A DNA stretch of 61,313 nt from positions 1-61,313 of the forward strand of contig NZ_JACMOM010000291.1 in the NCBI RefSeq assembly GCF_014378035.1, in the 5' to 3' direction. The DNA comes from Aeromicrobium sp. Its GTDB lineage: Bacteria; Actinomycetota; Actinomycetes; Propionibacteriales; Nocardioidaceae. Made by a program: the position numbers and the translations under genes. Every line of letters starts with the position of its first letter. The first letter of the stretch is position 1. This document shows positions 6,604-42,016 of this stretch, one piece after another. Under the pieces are notes generated by a model. That model searched no databases. It was not told the DNA's origin and worked only from the letters and a program-made list of their open reading frames with translations.

Positions 6604-6609
6604 TAGAAT
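6604..6609 (+). promoter_or_regulatory. -10 box of the acyl-CoA dehydrogenase gene
   Basis: TAGAAT lies immediately before and touches the palindromic operator at 6609-6628. The transcription start expected about 7 nt further on would fall inside that palindrome. This is a layout for repression by a bound TetR-type dimer. Confidence 0.5.
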
Positions 6610-6628
6610 TAGTAGGTCGTCCTACTAA
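6609..6628. promoter_or_regulatory. Palindromic operator, probable TetR-family site
   Basis: TTAGTAGGTCGTCCTACTAA is a perfect inverted repeat with 8-bp arms and a 4-bp centre, ending 11 bp before the acyl-CoA dehydrogenase start codon. The same 11-bp run TAGTAGGTCGT recurs at 40711-40721 in front of the TetR-family gene at 40052-40699. That makes this regulator the best candidate to bind here (inference). Confidence 0.7.
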
Positions 6629-6639
6629 ATGGAGTCCTC

Positions 6640-7800
6640 ATGTCCGACATGTTCGTCCTGTCCGAAGAGCACCAAGCCATTCGTGAGGCCGTTCGCGCGG
6701 TTGCCGAAGCCAAGATTGCGCCGTTCGCCGCCGACGTCGACGAGCAAGCTCGCTACCCCAAGGAAGCTGCCGCGGCGCTTCTCGCCGCCGACTTCCACGC
6801 CCCGCACGTGCCCGAGATGTACGGGGGAGCGGGCGCCGATGCTCTTGCCACCGTGCTGGTCATCGAGGAGATCGCGCGCGTCTGCGTGTCGTCGTCCCTG
6901 ATCCCCGCCGTCAACAAGCTCGGCTCCCTGCCCGTCATGATCGGCGGCGACGAGCAGATCAAGAAGACCTACCTCTCGCGCCTGGCCGCAGGGGAGGGCT
7001 TCTCCTACTGCTTGTCCGAGCCCGACGCCGGCAGTGATGCGGCCAACCAGAAGACCAAGGCAGTCCGCGACGGCGACGACTGGGTGCTCAACGGCGTCAA
7101 GCGCTGGATCTCTAACGCCGGCGTCTCGGAGTTCTACACGGTCCTCGCAGTCACCGACCCCGACAAGCGCACCAAGGGCATCAGCGCCTTCGTCGTCGAG
7201 AAGTCCGACGAGGGCGTCTCGTTCGGCGCGCCGGAGAAGAAGCTGGGCATCAAGGGGTCGCCCACCCGCGAGGTCTACCTCGACAACGTCCGCATTCCGG
7301 GTGATCGCATCATCGGCAAGGAGGGCACGGGGTTCGCCACCGCCATGAATACCCTCGACCACACCCGGGTGACGATTGCCGCGCAGGCCGTCGGCGTCGC
7401 GCAGGGTGCTCTTGATTACGCCCTCGGCTACATGCAGGAGCGCAAGCAGTTCGGCAAGAAGATCGCCGACTTCCAGGGGCTGCAGTTCATGATCGCGGAC
7501 ATGGGCATGAAGGTCGAGGCGGCGAGGCAGCTGACGTACGCGGCCGCCGGCCGCTCGGAGCGCGGCGACAAGGACCTGACCTTCTTCGGCGCCGCGGCCA
7601 AGGCATTCGCGTCCGACACCGCGATGCAGGTCACGACCGACGCCGTGCAGCTGCTTGGCGGCTACGGTTTCACTCGCGACTACCCCGTCGAGCGCATGAT
7701 GCGCGACGCCAAGATCACCCAGATCTACGAGGGCACCAACCAGGTTCAGCGCGTCGTGATGGCCCGCCAGCTCCTCAACGGGGTCCAGAGCAAGCTCTGA
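6640..7800 (+). CDS. Acyl-CoA dehydrogenase (FadE25-like)
   Basis: FAD-dependent acyl-CoA dehydrogenase of 386 residues, catalysing alpha,beta-desaturation of acyl-CoA in beta-oxidation or branched-chain degradation. Family features include YCLSEPDAGSDAANQKTKA near 125-143, the WISNAGVSEFY region, and the C-terminal IYEGTNQVQRVVMARQLL with the usual catalytic Glu. The ATG at 6640 has GGAG 5 nt upstream. The gene stands alone behind a palindromic operator. Its position next to purK-purE matches fadE25 of mycobacteria (from memory). A second, less similar acyl-CoA dehydrogenase lies at 28911-30107. Confidence 0.95.
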   Translation: MSDMFVLSEEHQAIREAVRAVAEAKIAPFAADVDEQARYPKEAAAALLAADFHAPHVPEMYGGAGADALATVLVIEEIARVCVSSSLIPAVNKLGSLPVMIGGDEQIKKTYLSRLAAGEGFSYCLSEPDAGSDAANQKTKAVRDGDDWVLNGVKRWISNAGVSEFYTVLAVTDPDKRTKGISAFVVEKSDEGVSFGAPEKKLGIKGSPTREVYLDNVRIPGDRIIGKEGTGFATAMNTLDHTRVTIAAQAVGVAQGALDYALGYMQERKQFGKKIADFQGLQFMIADMGMKVEAARQLTYAAAGRSERGDKDLTFFGAAAKAFASDTAMQVTTDAVQLLGGYGFTRDYPVERMMRDAKITQIYEGTNQVQRVVMARQLLNGVQSKL

Positions 7801-39809: not shown

Positions 39810-40055
39810 TTACTTCGCGGCAGCAGCGTTGAGACCGAAGCCGACCTTGCGCTCGGAGTCGGACGTGAAGTCGAGGTAGGCGACCCTCGCAGCCGGCACC
39901 GCGACGGTGCGTCCCTTGTCATCGGTGAGGATGAACACCGAGTCGTCCTTGAGGGCCTTGCTCAGGGCGTCGAGCACAGCCTGAGGCTCGGCCTCGGTTG
40001 CCACTGACAGCTCACGGGCGGCGTACTGCACGCCAATCTTGACCTCCACGGTCAC
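39810..40055 (-). CDS. DUF3107 protein
   Basis: Small protein of 81 residues of the DUF3107 family (TB9.4 in mycobacteria, from memory). It opens MTVEVKIGVQYAARELSVAT and ends with VAYLDFTSDSERKVGFGLNA. Function unknown; the compact beta-rich pattern suggests a small binding protein. The GTG at 40053-40055 overlaps the TGA of the TetR-family gene by 4 nt (GTGA), with AAGGAG just upstream; a second GTG two codons on is also possible. Co-transcribed with the TetR regulator. Confidence 0.9.
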   Translation of the reverse strand: MTVEVKIGVQYAARELSVATEAEPQAVLDALSKALKDDSVFILTDDKGRTVAVPAARVAYLDFTSDSERKVGFGLNAAAAK

Positions 40056-40699
40056 TCATCTCCTTGAATGTTGTCGTCATCTTTGTCTCGGGGAAAACCG
40101 CCGATGCCTCGCCACGCGAGGCCGGCGACGAGCTGGACAGCTTCGCTGCGGGTGAGGGTCGAGTCCTGCGACAGCCAGTTGCGGGCGCCGACATGACCCA
40201 TGCCGACAAGGCTCACGGCCAGGAGGTGCGACGAGGCACTGGGCAGGCCGGTGTCCTCATGGATGACCTCGGCGATGGCGGCGGCCGACTCCTCGATGAC
40301 GCGGTCGATCTGCTCGCGAACCGACGGGTCGCTGGTGAGGTCAGACTCGAAGACCAACCGGAACGCCGCGCCCTGGTCGGCGACATAGTCGTACCACAGC
40401 TCCATCGTGGCCCGGACGCGCTTGCGGTTGTCGTTGGTGCTGGCCAGCGCCGTCTTGACCCCGGCGATGACGGTGTCGCAGGACGTCTCGAGCAACGCGA
40501 GGTAGAGGTCGAGCTTGCCGGGGAAGTGCTGGTAGAGCACTGGCTTGGAGACTCCGGCCCGCTCGGCGATCTCGTCCATCGAGGCGGAGTGGTAGCCCTG
40601 CTCGACGAAGACCTCGAGCGCGACGTCGAGAAGCTGGGCTCGACGCGCGGTCCGCGGCAGGCGGCTCGTACGCGGTCGTAGCGGGATGGCTTCAGTCAC
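40052..40699 (-). CDS. TetR-family transcriptional regulator (FasR-like)
   Basis: Regulator of 215 residues. The N-terminal helix-turn-helix lies at about 18-65 (RRAQLLDVALEVFVEQGYHS, then SMDEIAERAGVSKPVLYQHF). The rest is an all-helical ligand domain. Its setting beside DUF3107, moeZ and the ferritin-like gene matches the place of FasR, the acyl-CoA-responsive fatty acid synthesis regulator of mycobacteria (from memory; orthology inferred). The GTG at 40697-40699 lies 7 nt after TAGGAT. The promoter carries ACGACCTACTA, half of the perfect palindrome before the acyl-CoA dehydrogenase at 6.6 kb, so it may control itself and that gene. Confidence 0.9.
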   Translation of the reverse strand: MTEAIPLRPRTSRLPRTARRAQLLDVALEVFVEQGYHSASMDEIAERAGVSKPVLYQHFPGKLDLYLALLETSCDTVIAGVKTALASTNDNRKRVRATMELWYDYVADQGAAFRLVFESDLTSDPSVREQIDRVIEESAAAIAEVIHEDTGLPSASSHLLAVSLVGMGHVGARNWLSQDSTLTRSEAVQLVAGLAWRGIGGFPRDKDDDNIQGDE

Positions 40700-40706
40700 A
40701 CCCTGA

Positions 40707-40721
40707 ATCCTAGTAGGTCGT
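40707..40721 (-). promoter_or_regulatory. TetR gene promoter with operator half-site
   Basis: On the minus strand ACGACCTACTA (40711-40721) runs into TAGGAT (40707-40712), the -10 box, which ends 7 nt before the GTG. The 11-bp motif equals one half plus centre of the palindrome at 6609-6628; the other arm is not conserved here. Confidence 0.55.
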
Positions 40722-40843: not shown

Positions 40844-42016
40844 GTGGTCGCCCCACTCGTGGAACCCGCCGCAGAACTCACGATCGACGAGGTGCGCCGC
40901 TACAGCCGCCACCTCATCATCCCCGACATCGGCATGTCAGGTCAGAAGCGCCTCAAGAATGCCAAGGTGCTCGTGATCGGAGCCGGCGGTCTGGGCAGCC
41001 CAGCGCTGCTCTACCTGGCGGCAGCAGGAGTCGGCACGCTCGGCATCATCGACGACGACGTGGCCGATGAGCCCAACTTGCTGCGCCAGGACATCCACGG
41101 GCAGTACGACATCGACAAGCCCAAGGCTGAGTCGGCCGCCGCGTCGGTCGCCGAGATCAACCCGCACGTCAGGACGATCGTCCACAACGTGCGCCTCGAC
41201 ACCGACAACGTCCTCGAGATCTTCGCCGACTACGACCTGATCGTCGACGGCACCGACAACTTCGCGACGCGCTACCTCGTCAACGACGCGGCAGTCCTGC
41301 TCGGCAAGCCCTACGTGTGGGGTTCGATCTACCGGTTCGAGGGCCAGGTGTCGGTGTTCTGGGCGCAGGAAGGGCCGCAGTACCGCGACCTCTACCCCGA
41401 GCCGCCGCCGGCCGGGATGGTCCCGTCGTGCGCCGAGGGCGGTGTTCTCGGTGTGCTCTGCGCATCGATCGGCTCGATCATGGTGACCGAGGCCATCAAG
41501 CTCATCACCGGCATCGGTGACCCGTTGATCGGCCGACTGATGGTCTACGACGCACTCGAGATGCGCTACTCGACCCTCAACATCCGTCGCGACCCCACCG
41601 GTGAGCCGATCACGGCGCTGATGGACGACTACGAGGCGTTCTGTGGCGCGATCAGCGAGGATGCGGCCGATGCGGCAGCCGGCTCGACGATCTCAGTCGC
41701 GACGCTCGATGGCTGGCTCAAGGAGCGTGCTGACGGTGGACGCGACTTCGTCCTGGTCGACGTCCGGGAGCCCAACGAGTACGAGATCAACAAGATCCCC
41801 GGATCGATCCTGATTCCCAAGGGCGAGTTCCTCAACGGCAAGGCGCTCGGGCAGCTGCCCGACGACCAGCAGATCGTGTTGCACTGCAAGTCGGGCGTCC
41901 GCTCGGCGGAGGCGCTCGCGGTGCTCAAGGGTGCGGGCTACAAGGACTCGGTGCACGTCGGCGGTGGCGTGGTGGCCTGGGTCAACCAGATCGACCCCAG
42001 CCAGCCCACCTACTGA
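40844..42016 (+). CDS. moeZ: Adenylyltransferase/sulfurtransferase MoeZ
   Basis: Two-domain protein of 390 residues that adenylates and then thiocarboxylates small sulfur-carrier proteins (MoaD, CysO, ThiS types). The N-terminal E1-like domain has VLVIGAGGLGSPALLYLAAA near 42-61, the conserved IDDDVADEPNLLRQ near 74-87, and a cysteine in PSCAEGGVLGVL. The C-terminal rhodanese domain at about 285-390 has the active loop HCKSGVRSAEAL with Cys347. The GTG at 40844 has AGGAG 6 nt upstream. Divergent from the TetR gene. It would support molybdenum-cofactor synthesis with MoaE at 58.9 kb and the molybdoenzymes here. Confidence 0.95.
   Translation: MVAPLVEPAAELTIDEVRRYSRHLIIPDIGMSGQKRLKNAKVLVIGAGGLGSPALLYLAAAGVGTLGIIDDDVADEPNLLRQDIHGQYDIDKPKAESAAASVAEINPHVRTIVHNVRLDTDNVLEIFADYDLIVDGTDNFATRYLVNDAAVLLGKPYVWGSIYRFEGQVSVFWAQEGPQYRDLYPEPPPAGMVPSCAEGGVLGVLCASIGSIMVTEAIKLITGIGDPLIGRLMVYDALEMRYSTLNIRRDPTGEPITALMDDYEAFCGAISEDAADAAAGSTISVATLDGWLKERADGGRDFVLVDVREPNEYEINKIPGSILIPKGEFLNGKALGQLPDDQQIVLHCKSGVRSAEALAVLKGAGYKDSVHVGGGVVAWVNQIDPSQPTY

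Follow-up and report, generated by a model that had tools for sequence, protein, structure and literature searches.

A conserved 20-bp palindrome at an Aeromicrobium acyl-CoA dehydrogenase promoter as putative operator of a Sco5413-related MarR regulator of isobutyryl-CoA genes

The palindrome at positions 6609–6628 of the analysed stretch of Aeromicrobium DNA (61,313 nucleotides, called the window throughout) is most plausibly the operator of a MarR regulator related to Sco5413 of Streptomyces coelicolor, whose putative binding would regulate the acyl-CoA dehydrogenase gene acd together with genes of isobutyryl-CoA metabolism. Based on comparisons of promoters and gene neighbourhoods within the genus and across the class, we assign this reading a probability of roughly 0.8. 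That the palindrome is a real operator is almost certain; judged by sequence comparison, its conserved targets are valine/isobutyryl-CoA genes and the regulator co-localised with them is a MarR protein. The features of the window that bear on this reading are as follows.

6604–6609, plus strand: −10-like hexamer TAGAAT, touching the operator (read from the sequence).
6609–6628, no strand assigned: operator, 20-bp palindrome TTAGTAGG-TCGT-CCTACTAA (read from the sequence; conserved in genus and class).
6640–7800, plus strand: acd, short-chain-type acyl-CoA dehydrogenase, the proposed controlled gene (Pfam acyl-CoA dehydrogenase domains).
40052–40699, minus strand: FasR-like TetR gene, taken to have no relation to the operator (best NCBIfam model FasR, 240.2 bits, cut-off 330).
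40711–40721, plus strand: second copy of TAGTAGGTCGT, in the fasR-like promoter; a half-site only, judged coincidental and outside the operator system.

The palindrome consists of perfect 8-bp arms around a 4-nt centre, and its 3′ end lies 11 nt from the ATG of acd (6640). The last base of TAGAAT (6609) is at the same time the first base of the palindrome, and the acd transcription start is predicted at ~6615–6617, inside the operator. An earlier sequence-only reading of the window had described a perfect 8-bp-arm palindrome at the expected acd start, which is borne out by the arms and the abutting hexamer, with the start itself predicted rather than mapped. The closest solved structures to the acd protein are labelled acyl-CoA dehydrogenase, followed by short-chain and butyryl-CoA dehydrogenases; its best named relatives come from Nocardioides and Aeromicrobium, and we infer its substrate from the protein family. 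Orthologs of acd are present in 39 of 41 genomes of the genus. All 21 acd operators found in the genus with up to four mismatches touch or contain a TANNNT hexamer, which lies 5 nt before the operator in 15 promoters and in the other six only inside it, 14 nt from its start; that second arrangement is in part inherent in the consensus and thus weaker evidence.

The relaxed operator consensus of the genus, derived from orthologous dehydrogenase promoters, is TTASTAGGWCGWCCWASTAA. With up to three mismatches, this pattern occurs at exactly three places in the source genome (a 4.23-Mb draft assembly of 400 contigs, with completeness of 90.5% and contamination of 7%): before acd in the window, ~33 bp before the start of hbd on contig C356, and on contig C276 in the intergenic region between the divergent genes marR and icmF, the latter cut by the contig end. 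A control pattern gave 6 and 7 hits in the same genome, so that the evidence lies in the positions at conserved genes, not in the hit count. A strict search for the 8-4-8 palindrome with three mismatches returned one further place in this genome, with more hits for the control than for the real pattern; this place is the marR/icmF intergenic region, and it carried weight only after the genus comparison.

Within the genus, second sites of the operator led to icmF, encoding fused isobutyryl-CoA mutase (1931.7 bits against a cut-off of 1500 for the protein of genome G029), to hbd, encoding 3-hydroxybutyryl-CoA dehydrogenase (445 bits, cut-off 319), and to the MarR gene divergent from icmF. The 20-position consensus with at most two mismatches has matches in 24 of 41 genomes, compared with a single control hit in all of them. 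Promoters were scored over 250 bp upstream of each gene and 40 bp inside it, at a threshold of four mismatches and with one match per genome, extra matches being dropped in G013 (marR, icmF) and in G002, G028 and G060 (hbd). At this threshold the operator is present at icmF in 37 of 37 genomes, within 250 bp of marR in 30 of 38, the source genome included, directly before acd in 21 of 39, and before hbd in 18 of 35 (36 genomes had an hbd match; G027, with partial matches, was dropped). In 18 genomes acd has no direct site; in eight of these it comes immediately after hbd, which carries the site in seven, leaving 11 of the 39 acd genes with neither a direct nor an operon site at up to four mismatches. 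None of 2,220 randomised upstream regions (1,110 shuffled and 1,110 Markov-resampled) reached the same threshold.

These positions also bear on whether the element could act without any protein regulator, through an RNA hairpin or simply as part of the promoter. In favour of this, the 8-bp inverted repeat is perfect, has a 4-nt loop and lies near the predicted transcription start; however, with the predicted (not mapped) start inside the repeat, the transcript would not contain the two arms together, and the copy in the source genome 94 bp before icmF lies between divergent genes. Symmetric conservation is, moreover, typical of protein sites, which counts against a hairpin. The hairpin was rejected from its position, and we regard an element without a protein regulator as very improbable.

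Several further observations were made at these and related promoters. Two operator copies stand 20–26 bp apart in loci L099, L105, L107, L109, L110, L178, L383, L384 and L388, a spacing suggestive of cooperative binding on adjacent turns. Another palindrome, built around TACTAGAACGTTCTAGT, occurs in three genomes of the genus (L309, at G011:C1:680936; G005:C1:2576384; G019:C1:1489777). The L309 copy is flanked by a LacI-like regulator gene and an oxidoreductase-like gene, both named by eye, and is possibly the LacI-like regulator's own operator. Four Nocardioides genomes (L010, L012, L017, L023) carry a different, GTAC-rich inverted repeat at the orthologous dehydrogenase instead; the start of the divergent gene there is TetR-like by eye, and another regulator may have taken over. 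In Streptomyces and Kitasatospora dehydrogenase promoters (L027–L029, L041, L046, L063), a TTACTTAACGGTARTTAG element is conserved, unlike the operator studied here.

Across the class, the pattern WTASTWGGACGTCCWASTAW with at most one mismatch was found in 100 of 246 genomes, and the control in none. Neighbouring genes were read for 71 sites in 70 loci, comprising 70 of the 75 distinct places listed together with one genus site (L411); the places left out belong to G175 and G341, which were not fetched, and to G000, G005 and G018, which were known already. Among the matches listed, 68 of the 71 sites precede icmA, icmF, mmsA, ilvE, an acyl-CoA dehydrogenase gene or hbd, a figure that describes rather than tests the regulon, since the site classes were partly chosen after the neighbours had been seen. 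By gene, again among the matches listed, 33 sites precede icmA, 16 icmF, seven ilvE, seven mmsA, four an acyl-CoA dehydrogenase gene and one hbd, with three others, one of which faces an E1 dehydrogenase gene. The icmA product is a methylmalonyl-CoA-mutase-type large subunit (566 residues in L373), and the substrate of this split mutase is inferred from its family. The ilvE protein of L371 is a branched-chain transaminase (421.8 bits, cut-off 250), and the mmsA protein of L381 scores 661 bits against a cut-off of 448.5; in the five wide mmsA stretches, mmsA is followed by an acyl-CoA dehydrogenase gene. The site stands directly upstream of ilvE in seven loci among the matches listed (L371, L398–L400, L403, L406 and L409). 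Most of these class targets are steps on the valine route through isobutyryl-CoA.

The sequence-only reading had connected the palindrome to a different regulator. It reported that the 11-mer TAGTAGGTCGT recurs exactly at 40711–40721, in the promoter of a TetR gene, and this is confirmed in the sequence: ~12 bp separate the second copy from the downstream GTG start of the minus-strand gene at 40052–40699. FasR, to which that reading had likened the protein, is indeed its best NCBIfam model, and the gene adjoins moeZ (40844–42016), which passes its own model cut-off; the score of 240.2 bits, however, stays below the FasR cut-off, so that FasR-like is as far as the name goes. If this protein bound the shared 11-bp element, it would link fatty-acid breakdown to its own promoter. 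An exact match shared by two promoter regions within the window speaks for such a link, as does the likeness of the protein to FasR, which in Mycobacterium tuberculosis reportedly senses long acyl-CoA (PMC7382501). FasR of Mycobacterium, a TetR activator of fas-acpS, thus resembles the present case in its acyl-CoA biology and through the FasR-like gene in the window; it differs in belonging to another family than the proposed binder and in the lack of the operator at fasR.

With one mismatch allowed, at least two matches to the 11-mer occurred in 2 of 100 shuffles of the window, and the pair within the window, taken alone, is mildly unusual. The exact 11-mer is nevertheless present in four copies in the 4.23-Mb genome against six for its reversed control, corresponding to ~0.06–0.09 expected per 61 kb, so that the proposed excess over chance hardly holds; judged by eye from the open frames, the two copies beyond the window seem to be part of coding sequence. 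Orthologs of fasR were found in 39 of the 41 genus genomes, and 30 were fetched and tested. No operator-like site was found in the 250 bp upstream of any of these 30, none of which has a match with five or fewer mismatches; the best matches have 6–9, compared with at most four at 37 of 37 icmF genes. At fasR the 11-mer overlaps a −10-like TAnnnT element just before the GTG start, in a variable region where other species have TACTCT, TAGGCT or TACGCT, and it is not conserved among the 30 orthologs compared.

Genes for fas, acpS or acc, which the sequence-only reading had expected, for a FasR-like regulator, from a genome search for the palindrome with two to three mismatches, were found neither in the source genome, where the sites are those at acd, hbd and marR/icmF only, nor behind any of the 68 assigned class sites among the matches listed. 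The sharing of the 11-mer is therefore judged a coincidence, on the basis of a genome frequency not above that of the control and of fasR ortholog upstream regions without the operator; the link between FasR and acd was rejected on the same two grounds, and regulation of these promoters by the FasR-like protein has only the slightest chance of being correct. What stands of the earlier proposal is an acd operator in an acyl-CoA breakdown regulon; what falls is the regulon shared with the FasR-like TetR gene. A second repeated word, TAGTAGG, which occurs five times in the window against 0.17 expected, was also dropped: two copies are the palindrome arms, one is the fasR half-site, and the remaining two are internal to long open frames. 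The case illustrates that an 11-mer occurring twice in a window can be misleading and that comparing orthologous promoters sets this right.

The regulator that accompanies the operator is a MarR protein. In the source genome, its gene is on another contig than acd and is divergent from icmF, with an operator variant between the two. The protein matches the Pfam MarR model with 44.9 bits (cut-off 24.6), and its top match among solved structures is 4b8x (E = 6.5e-41 over 141 residues, 71 of 141 identical), labelled 'possible MarR-transcriptional regulator', which shares the same HPTSVTN helix. We take 4b8x to be Sco5413 of S. coelicolor, the described MarR protein to which the Aeromicrobium protein is closest. 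A MarR gene is found beside or near the site in at least 14 families (f1, f3, f7, f17, f21, f22, f23, f30, f32, f34, f36, f37, f43 and f45), with a gene order that differs between families.

Among the matches listed, a MarR gene of the Sco5413-related subfamily falls within the examined stretch at 21 of the 71 sites. In wider stretches of 9–20 kb it was present in 17 of 20; 19 of these 20 had been chosen because the short stretch lacked a MarR gene, and 16 of the 19 then showed one. This includes all seven wider f23 stretches and four of five wider mmsA stretches, the f7 copies lying 3.6–7.5 kb away and being 39–46% identical. No MarR gene of this type was found within ~10 kb of two icmF sites (f41) and one mmsA site (L422, L423 and L427). 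The genes marR, icmF and hbd are grouped together, with two sites, in one further genus of the family (L323/L412). In family f22, represented by three loci among the matches listed, marR is upstream of icmA with the site between them; in the one read gene by gene (L373), a small gene also lies between marR and icmA. Eight of 14 marR loci in family f3 have the site close by, next to the mutase gene downstream of marR, and six are without it.

The MarR recognition helix starts with HPTSVT in 82 of 92 distinct copies. MarR copies of f2 with HATSVTPLVK (L327, L334) have no site in their stretches, and six f3 copies with HPTSVT likewise have no site close by. Within the genus, marR lacks a site within 250 bp in eight of 38 genomes. 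In G012, G016 and G060 it is, by coordinates, still the near divergent neighbour of icmF, and in G059 it is 2.9 kb from icmF; in G006, G007, G018 and G061 it lies elsewhere. G095 and G107 have neither icmF nor the site beside marR, and G007 has marR but lacks both an icmF match and a site before acd or hbd. From this recurring neighbourhood, we consider the MarR protein very probably the binder of the operator.

Alternatively, another class-wide regulator could bind, such as the Rrf2-type protein of f23 or a different conserved TetR or MarR protein, with the MarR neighbourhood being incidental. In f23 the Rrf2 gene and icmA are directly adjacent and divergent, the operator occupying the space between them (L402, L405, L407, L410 and others), and the Rrf2 gene is present in 17 short f23 loci and in all seven wide f23 stretches. 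A TetR-like gene adjoins icmF in G018 and G061 (L179, L180), where the MarR gene lies elsewhere, and marR is not always beside the site. On the other hand, the same seven f23 stretches contain a MarR gene 2–4 kb away, which makes Rrf2 less likely as the binder even in f23, and tblastn gave no match to this Rrf2 protein in the examined loci outside f23, most of them short. The recurrence of the MarR neighbourhood in at least 14 families with different gene orders also argues against an incidental association, and we regard control by such another regulator as unlikely.

The proposed MarR regulator can be compared with several known systems. CouR-type MarR repressors sense CoA thioesters, with CouR itself responding to p-coumaroyl-CoA; CouR is also of the MarR family, and 6c28 is a weak sequence match to the Aeromicrobium protein (5.1e-06). 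BkdR of Streptomyces, a regulator of the Lrp type, regulates branched-chain catabolism. BkaR of Mycobacterium, a TetR protein, is described as controlling branched-chain keto-acid or amino-acid catabolism. BkaR and BkdR are like the proposed MarR regulator in their control of branched-chain catabolism and differ from it in protein family.

For Sco5413, the title of a 2013 report speaks of a widespread actinomycete MarR regulator of unknown function. A ChIP-seq study reports SCO5413 among the genes bound upstream in vivo by NdgR, which regulates genes of branched-chain amino acids (PMC4340878), and SCO5415 is annotated as methylmalonyl-CoA mutase (PMC6629963). In further papers, SCO5413 appears as a cited reference (PMC3737563, PMC9739823, PMC4162614), in a tree legend (PMC12838073) and in the regulator table of a carbon-catabolite study (PMC4848846). 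No operator or regulon for SCO5413 or SCO5415 was found in the literature covered, most subscription journals lying outside that coverage.

In the mechanism we propose, a MarR dimer on the palindrome would cover the −10 and start region of acd and block RNA polymerase, and MarR would also repress icmF and hbd. Degradation of valine or isobutyrate would produce an acyl-CoA, most likely isobutyryl-CoA or n-butyryl-CoA, that would free MarR from the operator. Upon release, isobutyryl-CoA would be rearranged to butyryl-CoA, which would then be oxidised through crotonyl-CoA and acetoacetyl-CoA. Judging from the operator position, the habit of the family and the targets, the regulator probably acts as a repressor; on the same grounds, the odds that its ligand is isobutyryl- or butyryl-CoA are about even.

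More broadly, we lean towards a Sco5413-type MarR protein as a class-wide actinobacterial sensor of the isobutyryl-CoA pool, which would use one strongly conserved 20-bp operator to control a valine/isobutyrate regulon of shifting membership between families. This regulon would comprise isobutyryl-CoA mutase, short-chain acyl-CoA dehydrogenase, 3-hydroxybutyryl-CoA dehydrogenase, methylmalonate-semialdehyde dehydrogenase and branched-chain aminotransferase. In Streptomyces, polyketide synthesis draws on butyryl-CoA and methylmalonyl-CoA, so such a sensor, if real, would govern the supply of precursors in that genus as well. A candidate operator, a regulon and a testable ligand would thereby become available for a widespread MarR family with a solved crystal structure and, according to its authors' title, an unknown function. 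The node that it would control, at which isobutyryl-CoA is converted to butyryl-CoA, connects the breakdown of amino acids with acyl-CoA building blocks, among them those of Streptomyces antibiotics.
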